DNA from: Acidobacteriota bacterium
GTDB lineage: Bacteria; Acidobacteriota; Terriglobia; Versatilivoradales; Versatilivoraceae
DNA: 37,078 nucleotides
Direction: 5' to 3'
Assembly: GCA_003224725.1 (NCBI GenBank)
Contig: QHZQ01000026.1
Location: forward strand, 30,893-67,970
Position 1 is the stretch's first letter. Every line of letters starts with the position of its first letter. Below are positions 9,391 through 36,498 of the stretch, piece by piece. Position numbers and translations under genes: made by a program. The notes under the pieces are model-generated. The model was not told the DNA's origin, made no database searches, and saw only the letters and a program-made list of their open reading frames with translations.

Positions 9391-10158
9391 TCATAACTTA
9401 AGGTACTCTTTAAGACGCTTAGAATGAGACCGACTTACCGGTATTTCTGTTTCCTTCTTATCACTCATCTTTAATTGTAACGTCCTGTTAAACCAAGGCA
9501 CGACTTCCTTAATCTTATTGATGTTGACCAAATAAGAACGATGCACTCTCCAAAAAATGCTTGGATCCAAGTCTGCCTGCAAATCTTCCAGGGTTCGGTA
9601 ATTGGCCTCCCCCGCCAGGTCTTTGGCTGTCACCGAGATGGTGCCGTCCGAAACATTGGCAAAAATAATCTCTTCGGAGTCTACAAGGAAATTGCGGTTT
9701 TTATCCTTTACCAGGAGCTTGGATTTCTTTTGAGTGGATGGCGCTATCATACTCAGAAGGTTTTTAAGCCGATCATTGACCACCGTTTCGGATTCAAGCT
9801 GCTTCTTGGCACGCTGAACCGCCTTTTCAAGGCGGGATTTTTCTACCGGCTTCAAGATGTAATCCACCGCGTTGACCTCGAAGGCCTGCACTGCATAGTG
9901 GTCATAGGCAGTAACAAACACCAACTGAGGCAATTCGTCCTTTTTTGCTAAGTTCTCTACCACTTTAAATCCATTTAATCCAGGCATGTCTATATCTAAA
10001 AATAGCAAGTCGGGTTCAAACTCTTCTACCAGTTGGATAGCTTCAATTCCGTTGCGCCCCTGGCCAATCACCTTTACTTCGGGGATCGAGCTAAGCAAGA
10101 AATTGAGTTCCTCCAAAGCGGGTTGTTCATCATCCACAATAATGCAGGATATCGGCAT
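9391..10158 (-). CDS. LytR/AlgR-type response regulator (receiver + LytTR DNA-binding domain)
   Basis: Residues 1-120 are a CheY-like receiver with the acidic pair D9-D10, phosphoacceptor D55 in LLFLDIDMPGLNG, a VTAYDHYA Thr and a Lys in YILKPV. The C-terminal 100 residues form a LytTR domain, recognisable by VKDKNRNFLVDSEEIIFA, FWRVHRSYLVNINKIKEV and VSRSHSKRLKEYL. It is a cytoplasmic transcription regulator controlled by phosphorylation. I choose the ATG at 10158, preceded by AAGGGGAA, over a TTG two codons upstream. It lies about 32 bases after the LytS-type kinase and is its obvious partner; the target genes are unknown. Confidence 0.94.
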   Translation of the reverse strand: MPISCIIVDDEQPALEELNFLLSSIPEVKVIGQGRNGIEAIQLVEEFEPDLLFLDIDMPGLNGFKVVENLAKKDELPQLVFVTAYDHYAVQAFEVNAVDYILKPVEKSRLEKAVQRAKKQLESETVVNDRLKNLLSMIAPSTQKKSKLLVKDKNRNFLVDSEEIIFANVSDGTISVTAKDLAGEANYRTLEDLQADLDPSIFWRVHRSYLVNINKIKEVVPWFNRTLQLKMSDKKETEIPVSRSHSKRLKEYLKL

Positions 10159-10190
10159 GGTCAATTATTCCCCTTCAGGCCGGTCACTTG

Positions 10191-11552
10191 TTATCCGACC
10201 TTTTCTTTTGTTCTAACCTCCAAAAGAGGGACCTCGATGTGAGTAAAAGTGCCCTGTCCAGGAAAGCTACTGACGGTAAAAATATAGTCCGATTGATAAG
10301 CGACTTTGAGTCGTTCAATAATATTACTAATGCCAATACCGGAATTATAAATCCTGGGTATCTTTTCATCGGAGATGCCCACACCATCGTCCTCCACCTC
10401 AATACAGATCTTGTCTTTGTGTCTGGCAGAGCGGATCTTAATACTACCCCCTTCAATCTTGGGGGCAATCCCGTGTTTAATAGAATTTTCAACGATGGGT
10501 TGCAAGATCATGCTGGGTATCATATAGCTAAGCGTATCGGCGTCAATTTCCTTCTCAACCTTCAACTTGTCTTTGCCAAAACGAATCACTTCAATATCCA
10601 GGTAGTTGTCAATGAACTCTAATTCCTCTCTCAAAGAAATGAAGTTTTCATGTCCTTGAAGCAATTTCCGCAAAATATGGGAGAGCTTGATGACGATGGC
10701 TCGAGCCTTTGTCGGATTGGTCCGAATCAAAGAGGAAATGGAATTCAGAGTATTGAATAGGAAGTGTGGGTTAATTTGATTGGCCAGCGCGTCCAGTCGA
10801 GCTTTGACAACTAAGACTTCTTGCTCCGCCAGTTTTAACTCGAGCCGGGTATTATTCCAAATCTTGAGTGTAGTCCCGATGCAGCCTAAGGTTGCAATAA
10901 AGATGAACAAGAGAACAGGCGGGCTCTCAGAATGTAAATAAAAGAGCCAAACTGGGCCGTTTGAATGAATAGCCTGCCTGCCTGGGGGATCCGCGAGAGT
11001 AAAACTTTGACCAATCAGATAGCGTAGGCTATCGAAAGCAACACAGGTGAAAAAGAAAATAAGCTGCCACACCACCTTATTAAAAAGGAGCTTGGAGCGA
11101 AGGGACAGAAAAATATTGATAAGAACAAACGGAGAAAAATTCCAAATTTCTTCTTTGTTCGAACAAAGATTGCGGAGAATCCCACTGGTCAAACCGAAGA
11201 CGGCAGCCAGAGGCAGAGTCAGCCATTCTCCGTTCAGGGCCGCAGTTGCGCCCACTAAACACCCGACGATGAGGCCCACCACATTCCCACCGAGCAGACC
11301 GGCAATAAAGGTACCTTCCAAGGTCAGATCAAAGGCCTCGTACTTCATTGAAAATCGGATGGCAACGCCGATGGCAAGTGGAACCCCCCAGAACAGGATT
11401 AAATGGAGTTTTTCCCGAAACTCGCGAGGCTCTGCAAACAGGGTCTTCTTAAATTTTTGGGAGCGCGCCAAAAGGGCAGCAAGGGATGCAATAATCCCTA
11501 GCTTGACCAAGAGAGCAATAAGAGTTGCTTGATTCTCAGCAAAGGTATTCAT
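10191..11552 (-). CDS. LytS-type membrane histidine kinase (5TM receptor)
   Basis: The N-terminal ~225 residues hold six or so membrane helices, of which residues 55-130 (LTLEGTFIAGLLGGNVVGLI) match the 5TMR-LYT receptor domain of LytS. The kinase core starts LAEQEVLVVKARLDALANQI and NPHFLFNTLNSISSLI with H263 as phosphoacceptor. The ATP-binding part follows with PSMILQPIVENSIKHGI (N box) and VEDDGVGIS (G1). It senses an unknown envelope signal and phosphorylates the downstream LytTR regulator. The ATG lacks a strong ribosome binding site. No GAF or PAS domain is seen between the receptor and the kinase, making it a short LytS. Confidence 0.93.
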   Translation of the reverse strand: MNTFAENQATLIALLVKLGIIASLAALLARSQKFKKTLFAEPREFREKLHLILFWGVPLAIGVAIRFSMKYEAFDLTLEGTFIAGLLGGNVVGLIVGCLVGATAALNGEWLTLPLAAVFGLTSGILRNLCSNKEEIWNFSPFVLINIFLSLRSKLLFNKVVWQLIFFFTCVAFDSLRYLIGQSFTLADPPGRQAIHSNGPVWLFYLHSESPPVLLFIFIATLGCIGTTLKIWNNTRLELKLAEQEVLVVKARLDALANQINPHFLFNTLNSISSLIRTNPTKARAIVIKLSHILRKLLQGHENFISLREELEFIDNYLDIEVIRFGKDKLKVEKEIDADTLSYMIPSMILQPIVENSIKHGIAPKIEGGSIKIRSARHKDKICIEVEDDGVGISDEKIPRIYNSGIGISNIIERLKVAYQSDYIFTVSSFPGQGTFTHIEVPLLEVRTKEKVG

Positions 11553-23718: not shown

Positions 23719-23857
23719 TCTAAATGTTCCAGCCCGATGCGAATAGGAAAAAAACATCGGCCACAATCATGCGGCAAACATGCAGCGGGACGATGATTGA
23801 CACTCAGGTGTCCGAAGGATAGAATCCCATCGCCTCTTATCTTCAGTGAGGGATAAA

Positions 23858-25426
23858 GTGCTTTCCTCTCGGCGCCAGTTCTTAAACGCGACAGGCCTCG
23901 CTTTGGGGACAGTTGCATTCCCATCCTGGGTCCTTGACAGTGATGCAGCCGAAGCAACAGCCGTAAACAAGGACAGGTGGGCTGACATCGCGATCTCCTC
24001 TGCCCGCAAGATCGGAGCAACATACGCTGACATCCGTATTAATCGTTACCGGTTCGAATCGGTTGCTACACGTGAGAAACAGGTGCAGCAAGTGGCGCGT
24101 ACTCAGAGCTTTGGTTTTGGGGTCCGTGTGCTCTGGAAAGGCACCTGGGGCTTTGCTGCAACCCACACCGTAACCGACGACGAAGTCCGGCGAGTCACCC
24201 GGCAAGCTGTCGACATTGCCCGTGCTAACTCGATCTCCCAGAGGAAACCCGTCGCCCTCGTGCCGGCAGCCAAAGTGGTCGCGAGCTGGAAGAGTTCATT
24301 TCAAAAAGATCCATTCGAAGTCAAGCTTGACGACAAGATCCAGTTCCTCTTGAAAATCAACGAAACCGCCATGAAGGTCAAAGGGGTGAGCTTTGTGGAC
24401 TCCTCGATCTTATTCGTCAATGAGCAGAAGTTTTTTGCTTCCAGCGATGGCTCCCGCATCGAGCAGTATCTCATTCGTAGTGCCCCCGATTTCAATGTGA
24501 CCGCGGTTGACTCGGCGAGAGCCGATTTCCAGCAGCGACGTTCCCTGGGCGGGCCCCAGCAGATGGGTTACGAGTATGTTGAAACCTATCCCTGGATGAA
24601 CGAGGCCGAGCAGGCTGCTAACGAGGCAGTCGAAAAACTAAAGGCTAAACCGGTAGAACCTGGCAGATATGATCTGGTGCTCCATCCGACACACCTCATG
24701 CTCACTATCCATGAAAGTGTGGGCCATTCGACCGAACTGGACCGTGCCCTCGGCTGGGAAGCGGACTTTGCAGGTACTAGTTTCCTGGCACCTGACCAAA
24801 CAGGCCACTTCAAGTTTGGATCGAAGATTGTCAATTTTTTTGGCGACCGCACGCAACCGCAAGGACTGGCTACCATTGGATATGACGACGACGGGGTGCC
24901 CGCTCAACGCTGGTTCCTGGTCAGAGAAGGTGTATTTGTGGACTGGCAGACCACCCGCGAGCTAGCCGGGCTGATGGGTCGCAAGTCCTCTTTCGGCTGC
25001 TGTCATGCCGACAGTTGGGGCAGCGTTCCCTTTCCAAGGATGCCCAATGTCTCACTCGAGCCTGCAAAGGACCCGATTTCCATGGAAGACCTGATCTCCG
25101 ATGTGAAGAATGGCATCCTCATTTACGGAAACGGAAGCTTTTCAATTGATCAGCAACGCTACAATTTCCAGTTTGGAGGACAAACATTTTGGGAGATCAA
25201 AAACGGTAAGAAGCGCTCGATGATGCGGGATGTTGCCTACCAGTCGCGTACGCCCGACTTCTGGAGTGCCTGCGATGGAATTGGAGGGCAGGCAACCTAT
25301 GAAGTTCATGGAGCCTTGAACGATGGCAAGGGCGAGCCGATGCAAACCAATGCGGTCAGCCACGGCTGTCCAGTTGCCCGTTTTCGCCAAATTAGCGTAC
25401 TCAATACCGCCACTCAGCGGTCGTAG
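23858..25426 (+). CDS. tldD: TldD-family metalloprotease with a Tat signal
   Basis: The protein has the TldD/PmbA fold of about 520 residues. The zinc site is HESVGH (H285, E286, H290 counted from the GTG at 23858), followed by an acidic GWEADF and a C-terminal GCPVARF that gives the Cys ligand. TldD with TldE cleaves unfolded or modified peptides, such as microcin and CcdA in E. coli. Unlike the cytoplasmic E. coli protein, this one starts VLSSRRQFLNATGLALGTVA, a textbook twin-arginine signal, so it is probably exported folded with its metal. I choose the GTG at 23858 because GAGGGA lies five bases upstream; a GTG four codons earlier lacks this. tldE follows after 245 bases. Confidence 0.93.
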   Translation: MLSSRRQFLNATGLALGTVAFPSWVLDSDAAEATAVNKDRWADIAISSARKIGATYADIRINRYRFESVATREKQVQQVARTQSFGFGVRVLWKGTWGFAATHTVTDDEVRRVTRQAVDIARANSISQRKPVALVPAAKVVASWKSSFQKDPFEVKLDDKIQFLLKINETAMKVKGVSFVDSSILFVNEQKFFASSDGSRIEQYLIRSAPDFNVTAVDSARADFQQRRSLGGPQQMGYEYVETYPWMNEAEQAANEAVEKLKAKPVEPGRYDLVLHPTHLMLTIHESVGHSTELDRALGWEADFAGTSFLAPDQTGHFKFGSKIVNFFGDRTQPQGLATIGYDDDGVPAQRWFLVREGVFVDWQTTRELAGLMGRKSSFGCCHADSWGSVPFPRMPNVSLEPAKDPISMEDLISDVKNGILIYGNGSFSIDQQRYNFQFGGQTFWEIKNGKKRSMMRDVAYQSRTPDFWSACDGIGGQATYEVHGALNDGKGEPMQTNAVSHGCPVARFRQISVLNTATQRS

Positions 25427-25460
25427 GACACGGCCACGAACCTAAAAGCGCCGTTCAATA

Positions 25461-25645
25461 ACCGCAGAGACGCGGAGCCGCAGAGAGAATCATGGAGAAA
25501 CTCTGAAGTCTTAACGTTATCTTGACGCAACGGGTAAATGAAATGTGGTCGCCGATATTCAAACGCAGTAATCGAGTTTCTTTGAATTCATGACTGCTGG
25601 CAGTCCTCAGAGGAAAAACTCTCTGCGTCTCCGCGTCTCTGCGGT
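25461..25645. repeat. 185-base palindromic element between tldD and tldE
   Basis: Terminal inverted repeats of 27 bases (25461-25487 and 25619-25645) match at 26 positions and consist of the ACCGCAGAGACGCGGAG type sequence that I know as a widespread repeat in environmental bacterial genomes. A further outer pair CTAAAAGC (near 25442) / GCTTTTAG (near 25647) extends the symmetry. The inner 130 bases have no gene. It looks like a MITE-type non-autonomous element. Confidence 0.75.
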
Positions 25646-25671
25646 GGCTTTTAGTACCGTTTCTAGGACTC

Positions 25672-27021
25672 ATGTTACTTACTGAAAAGGCAGCCAGAAC
25701 GCTTTCCGCTAAGGTACTCAGCTTGGTGAAGGCTGACGATGCAGAAGTTAGCCTTGAATCCGAGAGTTACTCTCAATGCCGGTTTGCAGCCAATGCCATT
25801 ACTACCAGCGGCCAGCGAGAAGACATCAGGCTCCGCCTGACCCTTTGGATCAATAAGAAGAAGGGCTCAGCCTCGTCTAACCAGATTGACGATGCTTCTC
25901 TTCGCTCTCTCGTCGAGCAGAGCGAGCAGTTCGCGCGCCTGTCACCAGTAGACCCAGAGTACTTGCCTACACTGGCCCGCCAGCAGTACAAGCCCGTCCA
26001 AGGCTACGTCGAAGCCACCGCCAACATTTCTTTAGCTTCTCGAGCTAAAGCGATTGACCGAGTAATTGCTTTGGGTGAGAAGGAAAAGGTCCTCTGTGCC
26101 GGTTTCCACCAGGCACGCGGGACGGCCGGGGCACACGCCACCAAGAATGGAAATTTCTACTTCAGCCGTTCCAGCCTGGTGAGTCTCTCGGTCACAGCCC
26201 GTCTTCCGGAAGCTGCTGGCTCTGGCTACTTCCTGCGCAACCATTTCGATGTCGCTAAGCTCGATACGGCGCGCATTGCCCGCGAGTCCATCCAAAAAGC
26301 CCTCCGTTCCCGCGACCCGCGGCCATTTGAACCCGGCAGGTACACTGTTGTCCTGGAGCCACAGGCGGTTGCCGACCTGCTGGGGTCCTTTGCCTTTTCC
26401 TTTGACGCGCGAGCCGCCGACGAAGGGCGGAGTCCTCTTTCGTCGCCCGGTGGAAAAACCAAACTCGGTGAAAGAATATTCGATGAGCGAATCAGCCTCT
26501 ATACTGACCCCTGGCATCCTGAGTTGCCAGGCTCCCAAGCGGCGCAGGATGGCCTTCCCGCCCAGAAGTTTTATCTGGTGCGAAACGGGATCCTGGAAAA
26601 TCTGATCTACTCACGTTTTTGGGCTAAACAGAAACAGAAGGAAGCTACACCGGGACCCGTTAACAGCATTATGGAAAGCTCCGTGACCCCGGTCAGCCTG
26701 GAGGAAATGATTCAAGACACTAAAAAAGGCCTGCTCGTTGGTCGCTTCTGGTACATCCGGTCTGTCGATCCGCGCACTGCGCTTGTCACCGGGCTGACGC
26801 GCGATGGGGTGTGGTACATCGAGAATGGTAACGTGATTCATCCGGTGCGCAACTTTCGTTTCAATCAGAGTCTCCTGCAATTGCTTGCTTCGGGAAACGT
26901 TGACCTGGTCGGCGCTCCCGAACGTGTGGGTAGCTCTGAGGCCCAGGGCGGCAATCCCGTCCTATTCCCTCCGCTTAAGGTGAAGGAATTCCACTTCACT
27001 TCGCAGTCCGAAGCGGTCTAA
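25672..27021 (+). CDS. tldE: TldE/PmbA-family protein
   Basis: The 449-residue protein has the TldE/PmbA layout: an N-terminal domain with QREDIRLRLTLWINKKKGSA, FEPGRYTVVLEPQAVADLLG in the middle, and the C-terminal PVSLEEMIQDTKKGLLVGRF and GNPVLFPPLKVKEF. It has no HExxH zinc motif, as expected for the non-catalytic partner that completes the TldD heterodimer. It has no signal peptide and no twin-arginine motif, although its TldD neighbour does. The ATG at 25672 follows the palindromic element directly and has no strong ribosome binding site visible, so translation could be weak or the start could lie a little further in. Confidence 0.9.
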   Translation: MLLTEKAARTLSAKVLSLVKADDAEVSLESESYSQCRFAANAITTSGQREDIRLRLTLWINKKKGSASSNQIDDASLRSLVEQSEQFARLSPVDPEYLPTLARQQYKPVQGYVEATANISLASRAKAIDRVIALGEKEKVLCAGFHQARGTAGAHATKNGNFYFSRSSLVSLSVTARLPEAAGSGYFLRNHFDVAKLDTARIARESIQKALRSRDPRPFEPGRYTVVLEPQAVADLLGSFAFSFDARAADEGRSPLSSPGGKTKLGERIFDERISLYTDPWHPELPGSQAAQDGLPAQKFYLVRNGILENLIYSRFWAKQKQKEATPGPVNSIMESSVTPVSLEEMIQDTKKGLLVGRFWYIRSVDPRTALVTGLTRDGVWYIENGNVIHPVRNFRFNQSLLQLLASGNVDLVGAPERVGSSEAQGGNPVLFPPLKVKEFHFTSQSEAV

Positions 27022-27401: not shown

Positions 27402-28532
27402 TCAGTTACTGAAAGGAATTTGGTGCTCCTCCAACCAGGCCACCGCTATCTTCTCGAGAGCCTTGGCCCGGAATTGATACCACTCTTCTGCAATCCCGAG
27501 ATCATGGATTTTGTCCTTAAATCTGCGAAAGGCTCCGCTGCCTCTAATCTGTTGTGAGAGCTGGTTACTCAACCTGGAATCTTTGATTGAGTAGCAAAAG
27601 TCTTCCATCATTGCGTATTCATGAATATCGAACTTGTCGGGAAGGGGAAGATAATCATCGGTCTCGATAATTTCTCGGGCTTTCTTGATCGCGGTCTGCT
27701 GCCACTCTGGATAATCCTCCAGAGGATCCTCGTCTTCGGCTGCAGTCCGTTCTTCATCCGTCAAGGTGATCAGCTCACCGGTTCGCGGATTCAGGTAGGC
27801 TTTAGACTCGTCGCTGGCAGCGTCCATTTGATCGATGACCTGACTTAACGACACGACTGCATTCGACGCCGCCTGTGACTGTTGGTTTCCTGTCGGCTCC
27901 AGTGAGATTGGCTGGGTTTTTTTCATTTCGGGTGTGACAGCCTGGGGAGGCAGCACCTCAGGCGTTACACCATGCTTGAAAAGGCGAAACCATGTCCGTG
28001 TGTCAGCCTCGTTATAAATCGCCAGCGCCTTGATAATTTCGTGGGCAAACTCAACGCTCCCTACCCCGCTCGCCGTGATGATGTTCTGATCACTGACGGC
28101 TAACTCACTCTCATAAAGCGACGGATCCTGATACTCCGGAACCTTTGCCAGCAGGTATTCTTTGCTGTTGCTGGTGTGGCAGGCGTCTTTGAATAGACCG
28201 CTACGCGCAAGCGCTAATGTTGCCGCACCGATAGCCGCTACCGGAACGCCTATTCCGTGAATCTGCTCAAGCAGGTTGTGCAGCATCTTATGAGTTTGCT
28301 CTTCCCACATAGGGCCACCAGGCATAACGAAAATGCCTGCCCTTTCAGGTTCTACCTCGGCCAGGGACACGTGTGGTGTGACCGTGAGGCCTCCCATCGA
28401 GGTCACTGGTTCCTTGGAAAAACCCACTGTGGTGACATCGAACTGGTTTTGCTTTCTTATCTCGCACATTGCCAAGGCGGGTTCCCAATCGGCAAAGCCA
28501 GTGAATACAAGCAGATACGCTTTCTGTCGCAT
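27402..28532 (-). CDS. DJ-1/PfpI-like domain fused to UPF0158
   Basis: The 376-residue protein joins two families. Residues 1-175 are a DJ-1/PfpI (YoaZ-like) domain, beginning KAYLLVFTGFADWEPALAM, then FVMPGGPMWEE and VPVAAIGAATLALARSGLF. In active members the last motif reads AAIC; here residue 102 is Gly, so the nucleophilic Cys is absent, while the DWE Glu is kept. After a Gln/Ser-rich linker, residues 240-376 match UPF0158: KAYLNPRTGELITL, YLPLPDKFDIHEYAMMEDF and IRGSGAFRRFKDKIHDLGIA, then EEWYQFRAKALEKIAVAWLE. AAGGAG eight bases before the ATG supports the start. Neither half has a known role in this pairing. Confidence 0.88.
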   Translation of the reverse strand: MRQKAYLLVFTGFADWEPALAMCEIRKQNQFDVTTVGFSKEPVTSMGGLTVTPHVSLAEVEPERAGIFVMPGGPMWEEQTHKMLHNLLEQIHGIGVPVAAIGAATLALARSGLFKDACHTSNSKEYLLAKVPEYQDPSLYESELAVSDQNIITASGVGSVEFAHEIIKALAIYNEADTRTWFRLFKHGVTPEVLPPQAVTPEMKKTQPISLEPTGNQQSQAASNAVVSLSQVIDQMDAASDESKAYLNPRTGELITLTDEERTAAEDEDPLEDYPEWQQTAIKKAREIIETDDYLPLPDKFDIHEYAMMEDFCYSIKDSRLSNQLSQQIRGSGAFRRFKDKIHDLGIAEEWYQFRAKALEKIAVAWLEEHQIPFSN

Positions 28533-28883: not shown

Positions 28884-30116
28884 ATGATTCTACGAAAATT
28901 ACCTCAACTGATTTTCTCTGTGCTTTGTGTCTCTGGCGTCGTTCTGGGCGAAGAACGCTTGGGGCTGTTAGGCATCGGTGATGGGACGCTGACCAACAGA
29001 AGCTCTTCTATCCCCTATGGCCCCTCCAATTCCCAAACCAATTTAAATGGTGGATTCATCCTGCTGGGATCTCTTCGTGTTCAGGAAAATCTGTTTGTTT
29101 TTTACGAGGGGAGGGTCAATCACAGCGAGGGCTTGAGCGGCTCTCTCCCACGGTTACAGAAGACTCAAACCAACTCTGTCGTGCAGGGCTACCTGCGCTA
29201 TTCGCCCGGGCTGGCCTGGGATCTGAATGTCCAAATCGGTAAATTCGGGACCCCCTTTGGACATTTTCTGACCCGAAACTATTCGAACGAAAATCCGCTC
29301 ATCGGGTTCCCACTCATTTATACTCACAGGACTCCCATTAGTGCAAAAGGAATTCCCAGAAATCCTGCTGAGTTACTGAGCTATCGAGGGAGAGGCCAGA
29401 GCAATGGTTCTTACCTCTGGGGAAACGGCAACGCCTGGCTTCCCTTGACCAATTTTTCTTATCCCACCGGCATCATGGCCTTTGGCAATCCAGGCAAACT
29501 TGATTACCGCGTGGCCCTGGTGAACAGCTCGCTGGCCAATCCCATCAATCTTGGAACTCCAGGCCAGCGGGCTCAATGGGTTGCTGCAGCCGGTCTCACT
29601 TGCCTTCCAGGCTTACATATTGGAACTTCTTATGCCGAGGGACCTTATTTGGCTGCCTCTGTCAGTCGCTGGTTACCTCCGGCAACGTCTATCAACGATT
29701 TTAGGCAAAGGGCCCTCGGATTTGACCTGGAGTACGCCATAGATCATCTCGAGGTTTATGGCGAGCTCCTCTTTAATAATTTTGCAGTGCCCTATGTACC
29801 GCAGCGGTTGGGAGCCACCGGATATTTTCTCGAACTCAAGCAAACCTGGACTCCGCGACTGTTTAGCGCCGTTCGCTGGAATCAAATTTATTTTGACCGG
29901 TTCCGAAGTGGCTTCACGGATGGGTCTCATCCCCGCTTTGACTACAACGTTAACAGCCTGGAAGTTGGACTAGGATTTCGTTTCACCGAAAAGCTCTTGG
30001 CAAAATTCTCCTACCAGTACCATCGGACCCTGGATGAAATGGAACCGCGCGAAGATACATTCGGCGCGCAGTTGGTCTACACCTTTGATGTACGCAATTT
30101 GCTAAGAATACGATGA
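28884..30116 (+). CDS. Outer-membrane beta-barrel protein (porin-like)
   Basis: From the ATG at 28884 the product has 410 residues with a signal peptide ILRKLPQLIFSVLCVSGVVL ending near GEE. The rest alternates short amphipathic strands with aromatic ends (LRVQENLFVFYEGRVNH, NVQIGKFGTPFGHF, LEVGLGFRFTEKLLAKFSYQ), ending LVYTFDVRNLLRIR; this is the pattern of a barrel of the phosphate-selective porin or OprO/P type, or an alginate-export-like barrel. It would sit in the outer membrane and pass a small solute. An open frame continues 14 codons upstream, but the signal sequence begins at this ATG. The stop overlaps the next gene start by four bases (ATGA). Confidence 0.82.
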   Translation: MILRKLPQLIFSVLCVSGVVLGEERLGLLGIGDGTLTNRSSSIPYGPSNSQTNLNGGFILLGSLRVQENLFVFYEGRVNHSEGLSGSLPRLQKTQTNSVVQGYLRYSPGLAWDLNVQIGKFGTPFGHFLTRNYSNENPLIGFPLIYTHRTPISAKGIPRNPAELLSYRGRGQSNGSYLWGNGNAWLPLTNFSYPTGIMAFGNPGKLDYRVALVNSSLANPINLGTPGQRAQWVAAAGLTCLPGLHIGTSYAEGPYLAASVSRWLPPATSINDFRQRALGFDLEYAIDHLEVYGELLFNNFAVPYVPQRLGATGYFLELKQTWTPRLFSAVRWNQIYFDRFRSGFTDGSHPRFDYNVNSLEVGLGFRFTEKLLAKFSYQYHRTLDEMEPREDTFGAQLVYTFDVRNLLRIR

Positions 30117-30937
30117 AACCTAAGAATCCTTCAATCGTGCCGCCCCCCGGCGGTCGCGGCACACTAATTAACCTAATCGTACTTGTGACTTTAGGCATGG
30201 GACTATCTCCATTGGCACTACGTTTCAGATCTGACTTAAAATCGCAACCGACGTCGCCTCTTCACCTGGCCTTCAGCCACCCTCTCTCCCAATGGGATTC
30301 CGTTTCAAATGCTTCCGCTCCTGGAACCATTCGTGGAACTGTTAGAATCGAAAGTAAGATTCAGCCGAGAAGCCTTGCTTTTAGTCTTTATTCTCGCCGC
30401 GGAAAATCTCCCCTCAACAACAACCCTCAGGTGCCAGTCAACGAGTTGCAGAATGTGGTGCTCTACCTGGAAGGACGATTTCAAAACTTGGACGCGGCAA
30501 GCAACGCGGGTTTACCGAAAGAGAGTCCGACTATTCAACAAGTCAACGAAACCTTTATACCTCATGTACTTCCGATCAGGGTGGGAACAACCGTGGATTT
30601 CCCAAACGGTGACCCTTTCTTTCATAATGTTTTTTCCCTTTCCAGCGCTCGGAGCTTTGACTTGGGCCGCTATCCTAAACACCAAGTTCGATCCGTCACG
30701 TTCGAGCGGCCTGGGATTATAAAGGTCTTCTGCCACATCCACTCTCACATGAGTGCCGTCATCCTGGTATTTGAACACCCTCATTTCTCCGCCCCCAATA
30801 GTGCCGGAAGTTTTCTGCTGACTGACATTCCTCCCGGCGCTTATAACCTGGTCGCCTGGCATGAGCGACTGAAGCCTCAGAAGAAATGCATTGTCATCGC
30901 TGCGGGTACCAATGTTCAGGTGGAGATGATCCTATGA
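30113..30937 (+). CDS. Exported cupredoxin-like protein (methylamine-utilisation type)
   Basis: The 274-residue protein has an N-terminal hydrophobic segment (residues 17-36) for export. Residues 105-222 form a cupredoxin domain with a type-1 copper site: H171 in FFHNVFS, then C207, H210 and M213 in VFCHIHSHMSAVILVF. This C-x2-H-x2-M spacing matches the methylamine-utilisation-like cupredoxins. The last 45 residues (GSFLLTDIPPGAYNLVAWHE) look like a carboxypeptidase-regulatory beta-sandwich piece. It would carry electrons or bind copper in the periplasm. Its ATG overlaps the barrel-protein stop (ATGA) and its own stop overlaps the kinase start, so all three are translationally coupled. Confidence 0.88.
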   Translation: MKPKNPSIVPPPGGRGTLINLIVLVTLGMGLSPLALRFRSDLKSQPTSPLHLAFSHPLSQWDSVSNASAPGTIRGTVRIESKIQPRSLAFSLYSRRGKSPLNNNPQVPVNELQNVVLYLEGRFQNLDAASNAGLPKESPTIQQVNETFIPHVLPIRVGTTVDFPNGDPFFHNVFSLSSARSFDLGRYPKHQVRSVTFERPGIIKVFCHIHSHMSAVILVFEHPHFSAPNSAGSFLLTDIPPGAYNLVAWHERLKPQKKCIVIAAGTNVQVEMIL

Positions 30938-32721
30938 GGTTGTTGAAACTGCGAACAAAAATCATCTTGTTTACGACTCTGCTCGTCATTGGGGTCGTGG
31001 TGGGCTCCTTTTTTTTAATTGATCGTGTGGTCAGAGACCAGGTCAGGAGCCGTCTTGTGCATGATCTGGAGCGGTCTCAGCATACTCTGGAGCAAATTCA
31101 AAAGGATCGGCTACGCGAGCTGGTCGCCTATTCGATAATTGCTTCCGAAAACTCGACTCTGAAGGCTGCCATAGAAACTTTTCAGACGGAACGTGCCACC
31201 GGCAGCCCGATCCTGCAGCAACTCAGGCGCACTGTCGAAAACGAAGCCTATAAACTTTTTTCCATCCTGTCCGCAGATCTCTTGATTATCACCAGCAACA
31301 CTGGCCAGGTGTTAGCGATCCAGGGAGTCCCAGTCACTCCTCCCGCCGACTTCAATCTGCTTAATCAGCCGTCCATCGTGAACAGTCTCAGTTCCAAGCC
31401 GATAGACTTTGAGCAAGCTGCCAGCATTTGGCGCTTCTCAGAAAAGGTCTACCGCCTGGTCTCCATCCCCATCTTGTTGCAAGATATCGTGGTGGGAACT
31501 CTTAGCACCGGTTTTGAAATCAGTCCGGGTCTGGTGCAAGCCATCAAGGCGAATACTGATAGCGACATTGTCTTTGTGGCCGATGGCGGCATTATTGCAT
31601 CAACCTTGAATGCCTCGCAGAATGAGGCGCTCCTTAGTTATTTGAGAGACAACTCGGTTTTGAAAAAGCGCGATCTTTCTCCCTCACAATCAGAAATGGC
31701 TCTAAAGGGTGAGACCTTTTTAGCCCTGAAGATCAATTCCGGAGAGGTCTCCAGCGGGAATTTTGTGATCTTGAATTCCATTGACCGCGCCATGTTGGGC
31801 ATTATGGGTGGAATCAAGAAGACCATGATCCTGATTGGACTGCTCTCCATCATCCTGGCGACCATCCTGGGTTTGGGCCTGAGTCAGTCCATTACCCAAC
31901 CCTTGATGAGATTTGTGAATTTTATGGACGGAATTACTCGGACCGGCGATTTGAAGCAAAGATTCCGGCACTCAACTCCAAATTATGAGGTCGACGTCTT
32001 GGCCCGTTCGTTTGAAAGCCTGACGCGGTCTTTGGAAGAATCGCGCTCGCAGACTGCCAAATATCACGAGGAGTTGAGGCAGAAAGAGTCTAATGAGGAA
32101 AAGCTGCGCACTCTGGCGACGCGGTCTCGCCTGGACGCTCTCATATCCCAGATTAATCCCCATTTCTTGTTTAACGCTTTGAATACGGTCAGCGGTCTCA
32201 TCGATGAACACCCCGCCGAAGCCCAGAGGTTGACTTTAAAGCTCTCGAATATCTTTCGTCAGACTCTCCAGGCTTCACAGCGGGAAGTTATTAGCCTCCA
32301 GGAGGAGCTGAATTTTATTCAGGATTATCTCGAAATAGAGAAGGCCCGCTTCGGCGACCGCTTGCAGGTGGAGCAGCATGTCGCGGTTCAATGGGCCGAA
32401 ATTCCCTGCTTTACTTTGCAACCACTGGTTGAGAATGCCGTCAAACATGGGGCAGCACCAAAAATCGGAACGACTACCATTCGGATCGACGTGCGTCAAC
32501 TGGATAGCCTCTTGACGATTCAAGTTTCAGACGATGGAGTGGGAATGTCCAAAAGAGAGCTGGAAAATGTCCTGGAGCGCGGCTATGGACTTAAAAATCT
32601 GATTGATCGTCTCAACATCCACTATCAATCGAATTTTGCCTGGAAAGTGGAAAGCGAATTTCAGCGAGGCACAACCGTTTTATTGGAGCTTCCCTCCCAG
32701 CCCTCAATTGGAACCTCGTAG
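30934..32721 (+). CDS. Membrane sensor histidine kinase (cache-like sensor, HAMP, LytS-type kinase)
   Basis: From the ATG at 30934 (overlapping the previous stop as ATGA) the protein has 595 residues. A first helix at 8-30 and a second at about 296-318 enclose a 260-residue periplasmic sensor with a dCache-like SADLLIITSNTGQVLAIQG. A HAMP linker covers about 318-372 and a coiled-coil follows. The His_kinase domain has the phosphoacceptor H410 in SQINPHFLFNALNTVSGLI, with FTLQPLVENAVKHGA and VSDDGVGMS for ATP. This LytS/YehU-type core with an external sensor differs from the 5TM kinase at 10-11.5 kb. No response regulator lies beside it; a LytTR regulator should exist elsewhere. Confidence 0.93.
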   Translation: MRLLKLRTKIILFTTLLVIGVVVGSFFLIDRVVRDQVRSRLVHDLERSQHTLEQIQKDRLRELVAYSIIASENSTLKAAIETFQTERATGSPILQQLRRTVENEAYKLFSILSADLLIITSNTGQVLAIQGVPVTPPADFNLLNQPSIVNSLSSKPIDFEQAASIWRFSEKVYRLVSIPILLQDIVVGTLSTGFEISPGLVQAIKANTDSDIVFVADGGIIASTLNASQNEALLSYLRDNSVLKKRDLSPSQSEMALKGETFLALKINSGEVSSGNFVILNSIDRAMLGIMGGIKKTMILIGLLSIILATILGLGLSQSITQPLMRFVNFMDGITRTGDLKQRFRHSTPNYEVDVLARSFESLTRSLEESRSQTAKYHEELRQKESNEEKLRTLATRSRLDALISQINPHFLFNALNTVSGLIDEHPAEAQRLTLKLSNIFRQTLQASQREVISLQEELNFIQDYLEIEKARFGDRLQVEQHVAVQWAEIPCFTLQPLVENAVKHGAAPKIGTTTIRIDVRQLDSLLTIQVSDDGVGMSKRELENVLERGYGLKNLIDRLNIHYQSNFAWKVESEFQRGTTVLLELPSQPSIGTS

Positions 32722-33371
32722 AGACCATTCAACTCTTCTTATCTACAGTTCGACCCCGTGGTTCCTTACGCGCACTATCATTCTGCTAGGATGAGCCACT
32801 GCAGGGCTTGGCTACGGATGGGCATGGGGGATGTGGATTGAGGATGTCAGCCGAACCGAGTTTCCATTCAATTTCTTGCTCGTGGCAGAGAGGGCGATCT
32901 TCCCCACCAGGGGAGAGGGAAGCTGTGAAAAACTGGATCCGGCGTCCATTCAGCGCGTCCCTCCTTTTCCAAGGGGGAACTAGGCTTAGGGGGGTGCTTG
33001 CATCAACGCTCCTGCGCCCCCCCTGTAGTCCCCCCTTGAAAAAGGGGGGGACGCTGGTGATTTGGATATTTGCGGGGCCGAAAAACGCGGTTGACCCTCA
33101 CCCGTCGCTTCGCGCCACCCTCTCCCACAAGGAGAGGGAGAACAATAAGTGGGGGTGTGACTCAAACAGACGTTTCATGACACGCCGTTGCCCCTGTGTC
33201 ATGAAACGTCTGTTTGTAGCCTTGAAGTCAGCGCTCTAATCCCTGGAACTCTCCCTCGCCCCTGGGGAGAGGGTGGCCGCAGGCCGGGTGAGGGGGATCT
33301 TGGCTCGAACACATCAATGTCTAAGTCTGATTTGGAGCGTCAGGCAATTGAAAAAGTATTGGGAACCTGTC
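32722..33371. repeat. Palindrome-rich spacer before the TonB-dependent receptor
   Basis: No real gene is seen; the open frames are out of step with any family. Three nested inverted structures fill it. Arms at about 32956-32997 and 33014-33053 pair imperfectly (CCTTTT / AAAAAGG with G-runs). 33095-33126 pairs with 33265-33294 (CCCTCACCC...CCACCCTCTCCC against its reverse). Between those lies a perfect 21-base palindrome, 33163-33183 with 33196-33216, starting CAAACAGACG and with a 12-base loop. Each can form a stable hairpin. Confidence 0.7.
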
Positions 33372-36300
33372 ATGAAACTACTCGGCCCTTTCGTTGAGTT
33401 CTTACCCAAAGCTGTAGTTCTGGCCAACCTTTTTTTCATTTCTCAGCCCATTTTGGCGCAGCGTGGCCGCATCATTGGAACCATTCGAGACCCTTCTGAA
33501 GCGGCGATACCCGGAGCTTCAATCCGTGCCACCCACTCTGGGACTGGACTTAATTGGGAGGCGAAAAGCAACGGCTATGGAGATTACTCTCTCGAACCGC
33601 TCCCGCCAGGCCTTTATGAGGTCGCCGTGACCGCGCCAAACTTTTCCCCTGCCGAGTTTAAAGGAATCCGGCTGACGGTGAATGCAACACAGCGTGTGGA
33701 TTTCAAGCTGCCCCTAGCCATCCTGGCGCAGGAAGTGGAAGTCGGGGCCTCTAGTCGGCTGGTTGAAACTGAGACCTCGGAACAGGGTGTTCGACTTTCT
33801 GCAGCTCGCCAAGCTTGCTCCAGGAGTCGTGCCGAGCCTGGACAATCCGTCTTCACCCTCGGGACCTTTCAACGCCAATGGCCAGCGGGACCTCTCCAAC
33901 AACATCCTGATTGACGGCATCAATGTCAATGCGGGTGGCAGCTCTCGTGGCCGCATTAGTCTCTCGCCCGGAAATGACACTGCAGTGGGTCAGTCGGGTA
34001 GCAGCGTTGCGCTGATCTCGGTAGATGCGGTCTCTGAGTTCAAGGTCCAAACTCAGCTCCCTGCCGCTGAGTTTGGCAGCTTCTCGGGCGCGACGGTGAA
34101 CGTGAATTCGCGAAGCGGCACTAACCAACCCCATGGCAGTGCCTTTGAATTTCTTCGCAATAGCGCGCTGGACGCCAACAATTTTTTCTTTAACACCCAG
34201 GGAGTGAAAAAGACTCCCTCGCGCAACAATTTCTTCGGTGGGACCTTCGGTGGTCCCGTCCAGAAGGATCGAACCTTCTATTTTGGATCATTCGAAGGAC
34301 TGAGGCAGCGTCTGGGCGTCAGCTCGAATTCAAGAGTCCCAGCCAGCGCGGCTCGCGCCCAAGCCAGCTCCATAATCAAACCGCTGATTGACTTATATCC
34401 TTTGCCCACCGGCGCCGACAATTCTGATGGCACGGCTCCTTATTTTGCCGCAAGCAGCAACCTGGTTGGCGAAACTGATTTCAGCCTCCGCCTGGACCAT
34501 CGCCTCACAGAAAAGGACGATATCTTCGGCCGCTATTCTTTCAGCGATTCACTTGGTGTGATTCGCTCCTTCTACTTGAACTTCCTCACCAACAACCGTT
34601 CTCGCCTCCAAAACATCTCACTGTCGCACGTACGGCGGTTAAGTGCCTTTATCAATAATGAGGCGAAATTTGGTCTGGTTCGCAGCACCAATCATCAGTT
34701 GGGCGCGCTGGATTCCTTCGGAGGGGCCAAGCCAGTTCAATTGGACTCAGAAGGAAATGCCCTCTCCCCGGGCATTCTTATTTTCAGCTTGCCTTTTGCT
34801 GTGGCCCACAACCCGCTGTTCGTTCAGAACAACAACCTGTTCACTTTTACGGACAACCTTTCCCTCGCTCAAGGAAGGCATGATCTCCGCTTTGGTCTCT
34901 GGGTGAGGCGCGTTCAAGGCAACATCAACCTCAAGCCATTATCCAGTGGGGTTTATTTCTTTGATACCGTCCAGGACTTGCTTGACAACGATCCCAGCTT
35001 CTTCTTTAACCAGGTTGCGCTGACTGGCTTTGGCGTCCGCTTTAGCAATTTCGCCTTCTATAGCCAGGATGATCTGAAGGTCTCGCCACGGCTGAAGCTG
35101 AACCTGGGGCTGCGTTACGAGCTCAATACAGTTCCGAGCGAGGCCCACAACCGCTTTAGCCCCATTGTCGGCCTGCCAGATATTGCCGCGGCCACCCTCG
35201 GTACGCCGGGGAGTACCCTCCACAATAGCGACCACAATAACTTTGCTCCCCGTCTGGGCTTTGCCTATCAATTGACCCGGGACGCCCGGACCGTACTACG
35301 GGGCGGTTTTGGCATTTATTACGATATGCCATCACTCAACGCGTTTCAGCCAGCCCTCGGGCCGCCATTCAAGATTACCAATTTTTTGTTGGGGACAAAG
35401 TTCGGCGGTGAGGTTAAGGTCCCAGTGAATCCGGACCTGCTGCAAACTGCTGTTTCCGGCAAGCCACCTTTCGGTAGCGCCAACGTCTATGACCCGGAAA
35501 ATTTTCGCACGCCCTATACTTTTCAGTATAACCTGAACCTGCAAAGGGAACTCGATGGCCGCACCGTGGTCCAAGCCAGCTATGTGGGGGCTTCGGGAAA
35601 ACGCTTGATCCGATTTCGCCCGCTAAATCTTCTGGATCCGGCAACGGCGACTGCGCCTAACCCCAACTTTGCAGCCGGTGCGCTTGAATTAATTGAGACA
35701 ACCGCCCGTTCCAACTACCATTCGTTTCAGTTCAATGCGGTCAGACGGCTGCACCGTGGCCTGGACCTGATAACTTCCTATACGCTGGGACATTCGCTGG
35801 ACGACGTTTCCAATGGGACTGGGACCTCGGTGAATTCGACCTACACCGCCTCTGATCCGAATAACCTGCGAGCCGAGTATGGCAATAGCGATTTTGATAT
35901 TCGCCAGAATTTTGTGGTGGCTTTCTCATATCTCTTGCCGATGCCATCCGTCAGCTCCCATCAGGCGGTAATGAAATTTCTGGAAGGATGGTCCATTCAA
36001 GGAATTTTCAGTTCACAAACCGGCCCGCCTTTTACGGCCTTCCTCGGACAAGATATTGCCGGCAACGGTGACCAGTTTGCCGCCAACAACCAGCGGCCCA
36101 ATGTCGTCCCGGACCAACCGCTGTACGTTTCTTCCGACTTCCCCCCCTTCCACGTCGCCAACCCAAAGTCATTTGCTGTCCCGGCGCCCGGATCGTATGG
36201 AAACGCTGGCCGCAACATTCTTCGCTCGCGCGGTTTCCAGCAACTTGATTTTGGCCTCCTGAAAAACACTAAGATCAACGAAAAATTTTCGGTCCAATAT

Positions 36301-36498
36301 CGTGCCGAGTTTTTCAATCTCCTCAACCATCCCAACTTCTCGACACCGGCCTCTTCTGGAAACCACCTGCTGACCACCGGCAATGATTTTGGATTGTCCA
36401 AACAGATGGCCAATGAATCGAGCGGCGGATTTCTCGGTCCGCTTTTTAATAGCGGCGGCCCCCGCAGCATTCAATTTGTGTTGAAGCTGGTCTTTTGA
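33372..36498 (+). pseudogene. TonB-dependent receptor with a broken reading frame
   Basis: The first frame starts at an ATG at 33372 with a signal peptide (KAVVLANLFFISQPILAQ), then a carboxypeptidase-regulatory-like domain, GTIRDPSEAAIPGASIRATH to TVNATQRVDFKL. It leaves the family pattern at about 33787, just after VETETSEQG. The second frame, open from 33763 to 36498, takes up FLQLAKLAPGVVPSLDNPSS and continues through plug and barrel with many TonB-receptor strands, ending GGPRSIQFVLKLVF. The usual VxxLPLNGR segment, of about a dozen codons, is missing at the joint, so this is more than a single-base slip. If translated in two parts, the barrel would lack a signal. Native size would be about 1050 residues. 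Confidence 0.88.

Follow-up and report, generated by a model that had tools for sequence, protein, structure and literature searches.

The window discussed here, meaning the whole stretch that we analysed, is 37,078 nucleotides of DNA from an Acidobacteriota bacterium of the family Versatilivoraceae (assembly GCA_003224725.1, contig QHZQ01000026.1, positions 30,893 to 67,970 of the forward strand); positions given without a locus number are those of the window. Three genes on its forward strand encode a porin of 410 amino acids (28884-30116), a 274-residue protein with a cupredoxin domain and a C-terminal CarboxypepD_reg/fn3-like domain that is either exported or membrane-anchored (30113-30937), and a receptor histidine kinase of 595 amino acids (30934-32721). 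To judge by gene neighbourhoods in other genomes, this trio is a widespread module with exchangeable outputs and not a peculiarity of the source genome.

The three genes are tightly coupled. An earlier note on this DNA, made from the sequence alone, had reported ATGA overlaps at both joints, and the reading frames agree: the TGA of the porin ends at 30116 and the ATG of the cupredoxin begins at 30113, while the cupredoxin ends with a TGA at 30937 and the kinase begins with an ATG at 30934. Among the 68 named relatives in which the receptor directly follows, the cupredoxin gene ends in ATGA or GTGA in 37, and the gap is at most 30 bases in 30 more, so tight coupling is a trait of the family. 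We saw no clear conserved block when the DNA upstream of the trio was compared with that of the congener, and we do not claim a LytTR operator there.

The three proteins

The cupredoxin carries the full set of type-1 copper ligands that the earlier note had assigned to it: H171 in an HNVFS motif (30623-30625) and a copper-binding loop of amicyanin-type spacing, C207-x2-H210-x2-M213 (30731-30751). All four residues are invariant in an alignment of 22 members. Across 111 non-redundant family members, the CxxHxxM loop is present in every one and the upstream histidine in 110, the sole exception being a sequence that ends at a contig edge. In the PDB, the profile of the family matched amicyanin, plastocyanin and the additional cupredoxin domain that is fused to NirK. 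With His, Cys, His and Met in the cupredoxin order, and kinship with solved cupredoxins, the window protein is predicted to be a type-1 (blue) copper protein that binds one copper. It had also been called exported, and export is likely, with either a cleaved signal peptide or an N-terminal anchor in this copy.

This protein shares the CxxHxxM loop, the upstream histidine and the PDB profile match with the amicyanin-type cupredoxins that are annotated as "methylamine utilization protein", but it differs from them in its longer N-terminus and its extra CarboxypepD_reg-like domain, for which the Pfam match is weak. It scores 16.1 bits (E 0.011) against the amicyanin equivalog TIGR02657, far below the curated cut-off of 110.2, and we saw no methylamine dehydrogenase genes adjoining it. 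Viral contigs yielded no relatives of the cupredoxin. The relatives on Sinorhizobium pSymA, which we treated as a separate branch, sit among sox/SCO genes and not beside receptors. At three other loci (L051, L069 and L072), tandem cupredoxins of the family occur without a dCache receptor. An NtrC-type regulator is nearby in L051, and other kinases in the rest; these loci may be wired differently.

In the kinase, the cytoplasmic half is clear. His_kinase (PF06580) matches residues 399-477 with 96.1 bits (cut-off 25.2) and an E value of 1.5e-27, HATPase_c is also present, and the phospho-acceptor H410 (32161-32163) lies within QINPHFLFN. The outer part consists of about 265 residues between two long hydrophobic helices. 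This corroborates the earlier description of a kinase with a large periplasmic sensor and H410. Pfam found no dCache domain in the window kinase itself, and searching PDB sequences with the sensor alignment gave weak, unconvincing matches, so we turned to fold comparison. An AlphaFold2 model of residues 1-369 (predicted local distance difference test score, pLDDT, 89.6) has Mlp24, PctA, DctB and LuxQ (3c38) as its closest folds in Foldseek, and receptors in relatives match dCache_3 in Pfam. From the model and these matches, we predict a periplasmic double-Cache (dCache) domain at about residues 32-295 (31027-31818), between two transmembrane (TM) helices, and the overall order TM, dCache, TM, HAMP, His_kinase, HATPase_c. 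The label "LytS-type" therefore fits only the cytoplasmic half: like LytS/LytTR systems, the kinase combines PF06580 with HATPase_c, but its input is HAMP plus a dCache-like domain, and Pfam found no trace of the 5TM-LYT input domain of true LytS.

No cysteine, histidine or methionine is conserved at 60% or more in the sensor alignment, and few polar positions are conserved at all. Because the copper ligands are near-invariant in the cupredoxin and none is conserved in the sensor, any dependence on copper most likely enters through the cupredoxin. We also weighed whether the trio is a copper system like CusS, but decided against this: the kinase scores 39.7 bits against TIGR01386 (cztS_silS_copS), whose cut-off is 292.55, and the match falls in the generic kinase part.

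The first gene had been said to resemble an outer-membrane barrel, and its predicted structure supports this. The AlphaFold2 model (pLDDT 85.1; predicted template modelling score, pTM, 0.83) matches OmpF/OmpC, OprP and Omp-Pst1/2 in Foldseek with E values of about 1e-12 to 1e-14, and the family profile matches Porin P (2o4v; E 5e-4). No Pfam porin family scored above its cut-off for the window protein. On the strength of the model, we regard the first gene as encoding a predicted outer-membrane porin.

Recurrence, output exchange and gene fusions

We selected loci in other genomes by their cupredoxin and not by the neighbouring genes. A scan of named genomes gave 80 loci, chiefly from Acidobacteriota and Gemmatimonadota. 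A few carry other labels (Gammaproteobacteria, Lysobacterales, Zixibacteria, Eisenbacteria, Myxococcota, and "Cyanobacteria" and "Kuenenia" metagenome-assembled genomes); such labels are bin labels of single contigs, and the "Cyanobacteria" and "Kuenenia" assignments are doubtful. The trio in its porin, cupredoxin and LytS-type form is also present in the congener and in two other genomes of the family (L038, L039 and L040), so the co-occurrence in related genomes on which the earlier proposal depended is indeed found. The source genome has paralogous copies as well: a second cupredoxin, cut by a contig end, stands with a receptor of HD-GYP output and a porin of the same family (L006), and another cupredoxin lies beside a truncated sensor (L005).

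For counting associations, we used 91 non-redundant cupredoxin loci that have sequence on either side, away from contig ends. The same type of receptor lies within two genes and on the same strand in 76 of them. A porin of the trio's family is present at 48, and a second, coiled-coil porin-like family at 26, while background genes from these loci give 0/246 and 3/246. The association also holds in the other direction. Across the whole genomes of 101 relatives, 50 of 66 sensor-profile matches and all 15 porin-profile matches have a listed cupredoxin no more than 5 kb away, with the proviso that the porin profile was built on cupredoxin-adjacent members, so that distant stand-alone relatives may escape it. 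At the level of gene neighbourhoods, then, the association of cupredoxin, receptor and porin is conserved. As far as we could find in open-access full text (subscription journals were outside that search), this module has not been described and has no named function, and the passages of the copper literature that we checked mention no such unit.

What varies is the output of the receptor. Behind the same sensor we found a LytS-type kinase, a HisKA kinase, a HisKA kinase with a receiver, HD-GYP, and a class III adenylate cyclase, and a receptor on a Comamonas plasmid joins dCache_3 to a GGDEF-EAL output. The cupredoxin tree requires at least seven changes of output; on it, the window copy falls in a LytS-type branch that is small (three members) but supported and stands next to an HD-GYP group. 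Loci of the HisKA type often have an adjoining regulator, which may be OmpR-type (L080, L082), a lone receiver (L148-L152) or NtrC-type (L129, L138, L154). Because many of these outputs, namely HD-GYP, cyclase and GGDEF-EAL, do not bind DNA, the cupredoxin and the porin are unlikely to be mere target genes of the receptor. Instead, they look like part of its input.

In four Gemmatimonadota loci, the reading frame of the receptor runs in frame into the porin (L088:7567-11148, L108:1067-4099, L123:7600-10770 and L153:7462-10458). The fused receptors have kinase-receiver or class III cyclase outputs. The junctions, of which LLLAVTLLALSTGVARAQ in L123 is an example, resemble signal peptides that have an A-x-A site, and in the stretch from the end of the cyclase to the porin, neither L108 nor L153 offers an ATG, GTG or TTG at which the porin could start separately. 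These features suggest a single precursor that signal peptidase is predicted to cleave. Rare start codons or sequencing errors are possible, but sequencing error is unlikely given that four loci show the fusion. The in-frame fusions tie receptor and porin together. A 922-residue frame at L135 was not counted, as it appears to be read in the wrong frame everywhere but in the porin part.

A candidate response regulator and the neighbouring genes

The earlier note had remarked on a missing response regulator. None is adjacent to the trio, which is a further difference from LytS/LytTR systems, but the genome probably does not lack one: a REC-LytTR response regulator, which is the assembly's sole LytTR match, sits in the window itself (9391-10164, reverse strand). 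Beside it on the same strand is its own kinase, with 5TM-LYT and His_kinase domains (10191-11552). Some 19 kb separate this pair from the trio kinase, and the two kinases are the only PF06580 kinases that we found in the genome, although the assembly is 88.7% complete and a further regulator may be unsequenced. With one LytTR protein for two PF06580 kinases, it appears that both kinases feed the same regulator, which is probably the partner of the trio kinase. The congener likewise has one LytTR protein and two PF06580 kinases, while two other members of the family are richer in both.

Several other features of the window deserve mention. On the reverse strand, divergent from the trio, a gene at 27402-28532 encodes a DJ-1/PfpI domain fused with a UPF0158-like C-terminal half. 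Further upstream is a PmbA/TldD-type gene pair (23846-27021, forward strand), the first of which has a Tat-like signal (SSRRQFLNATGLALGTVAFPSW) that is unusual for a TldD homologue. Downstream of the trio, at 33025-33055, is a palindrome (ccccccttgaaaaaggggggg) that resembles an interspersed repeat. It is followed on the forward strand by what looks, by eye, like a TonB-dependent, Oar-like protein in two overlapping frames of 213 and then 911 amino acids (33273-36498). The 213-residue frame begins with a carboxypeptidase-regulatory-like part, and the split reflects a frameshift in either the gene or the assembly.

Proposed signalling across the envelope and its alternatives

We think it fairly probable that the trio is a copy of a conserved signalling module that crosses the cell envelope, and that the receptor receives its input from the cupredoxin, by way of the copper loading or redox state of that protein. 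The porin, as the outer-membrane channel, would admit copper, a complex of copper or a redox-active solute. The cupredoxin, at the periplasmic face of the inner membrane, would then shift in copper loading or in Cu(I)/Cu(II) state, and the shifted protein would dock on, or leave, the dCache domain of the inner-membrane receptor. From there, the signal would travel by the transmembrane helices and HAMP into the output. In the window copy, the kinase would autophosphorylate at H410 and pass the phosphoryl group on, probably to the LytTR regulator. The earlier note had likewise suggested a sensing module, with the cupredoxin or a solute that passes the porin reporting to the kinase; the recurrence of the trio in relatives speaks for the module, while the reporting itself is something that we infer.

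Known systems offer partial parallels. One of the folds that the sensor matches is the periplasmic domain of LuxQ, a receptor that works with a dedicated periplasmic protein, LuxP. Unlike the cupredoxin, LuxP is a sugar-binding-type protein for autoinducer-2 (AI-2), and LuxPQ involves neither a porin nor copper. In YfiBNR, a tripartite cyclic di-GMP (c-di-GMP) system of Pseudomonas aeruginosa, an outer-membrane component, a periplasmic regulator and an inner-membrane receptor are encoded together, and in relatives the output of the receptor is exchanged for GGDEF-EAL, HPT or a histidine kinase (PMC3375315). The trio resembles this system in its outer-membrane, periplasmic and inner-membrane parts and in the exchange of outputs between species, and by analogy it may work in a similar way. 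The parts differ, however: YfiR is not a cupredoxin, YfiB is PAL-type and not a porin, the periplasmic domain of YfiN is PAS-type, and scans of the trio with Pfam and NCBIfam gave no match to YfiR or PAL/OmpA. In DbfQRS of Vibrio cholerae, a small periplasmic protein and a kinase are encoded together, and the protein alters the activity of the kinase by binding to its sensory domain (PMC12714742). The passages that we consulted mention no metal for DbfQ; DbfQRS has no porin, and its response regulator, unlike in the trio, lies inside the operon. By its domains and profile matches, the trio belongs to none of these three systems, nor to LytS proper, nor to the copper-kinase equivalog, and it has no accessory protein in common with YfiBNR-like tripartite systems.

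Several observations weigh against our preferred reading. Small molecules are the usual ligands of dCache domains, so the receptor may sense a metabolite. Sixteen of the 66 receptor matches have no listed cupredoxin inside 5 kb, the porin could be general-purpose, and the Comamonas copy has no porin homologue. The pairing of the kinase with the LytTR regulator is based on gene counts in the incomplete assembly (88.7%). And in the congener (genome G001), the kinase frame is broken into 149 and 418 amino acids (L038:6783-8541), by either decay or an assembly error. There is a rival account that we consider rather unlikely but not negligible: the dCache pocket would sense a small molecule let in by the porin, and the cupredoxin would be an electron carrier or copper chaperone that is needed or regulated and is not the ligand. 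The best-matched dCache folds are indeed receptors for amino acids and dicarboxylates. Also, another cupredoxin relative in the source genome (L003) adjoins, by eye, cytochrome-c-like and heme A synthase-like proteins, so relatives of the cupredoxin can serve respiration. But no redox enzyme was seen to recur beside the module, few polar positions of the sensor are conserved, and a non-transcriptional receptor needs no adjacent target, yet the cupredoxin has stayed adjacent through at least seven output changes.

It is improbable, in our view, that the trio is an operon for copper acquisition or tolerance in which the porin imports copper, the cupredoxin stores or shuttles it, and the kinase responds to copper as an ordinary two-component sensor. 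Copper systems do include cupredoxins and outer-membrane proteins, and one relative (L054) has a weak match to the CusS sensor domain. Nevertheless, no copper ATPase, CusCBA part or multicopper oxidase turned up among those neighbours that were scanned with Pfam, the sensor lacks conserved metal-ligand residues, and c-di-GMP and cyclase outputs are atypical of copper tolerance. As for the idea that the LytS-type copy is decaying, or that the set is neutral and its order a chance of the genome, the broken kinase frame in the congener and the truncated paralogous module in the source genome could be read this way. We give it very little credence: the three reading frames in the window are intact, the catalytic motifs are present, and the synteny across the family is far above background, which already contradicts it.

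We also make a broader proposal tentatively, as quite possible. The trio may represent an undescribed family of trans-envelope signalling systems, spread over multiple phyla, whose dCache receptors have as their ligand a type-1 copper protein, gated by copper or redox state, and whose signal is supplied by a dedicated porin. The same input would serve LytS and HisKA kinases as well as HD-GYP, GGDEF-EAL and adenylate cyclase outputs, and in some Gemmatimonadota the receptor and the porin would be made as a joint precursor. Cupredoxins are so far known mainly for electron transfer and copper handling. If one of them is linked, in a conserved module, to receptors of such diverse output, bacterial signalling would gain a way of sensing copper or redox state with a separate blue copper protein. 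The module is small, and its predictions are clear: the cupredoxin should bind copper, interact with the dCache domain and control the output. Genes that are now annotated as "methylamine utilization protein" or "carboxypeptidase regulatory-like" would gain a testable role.

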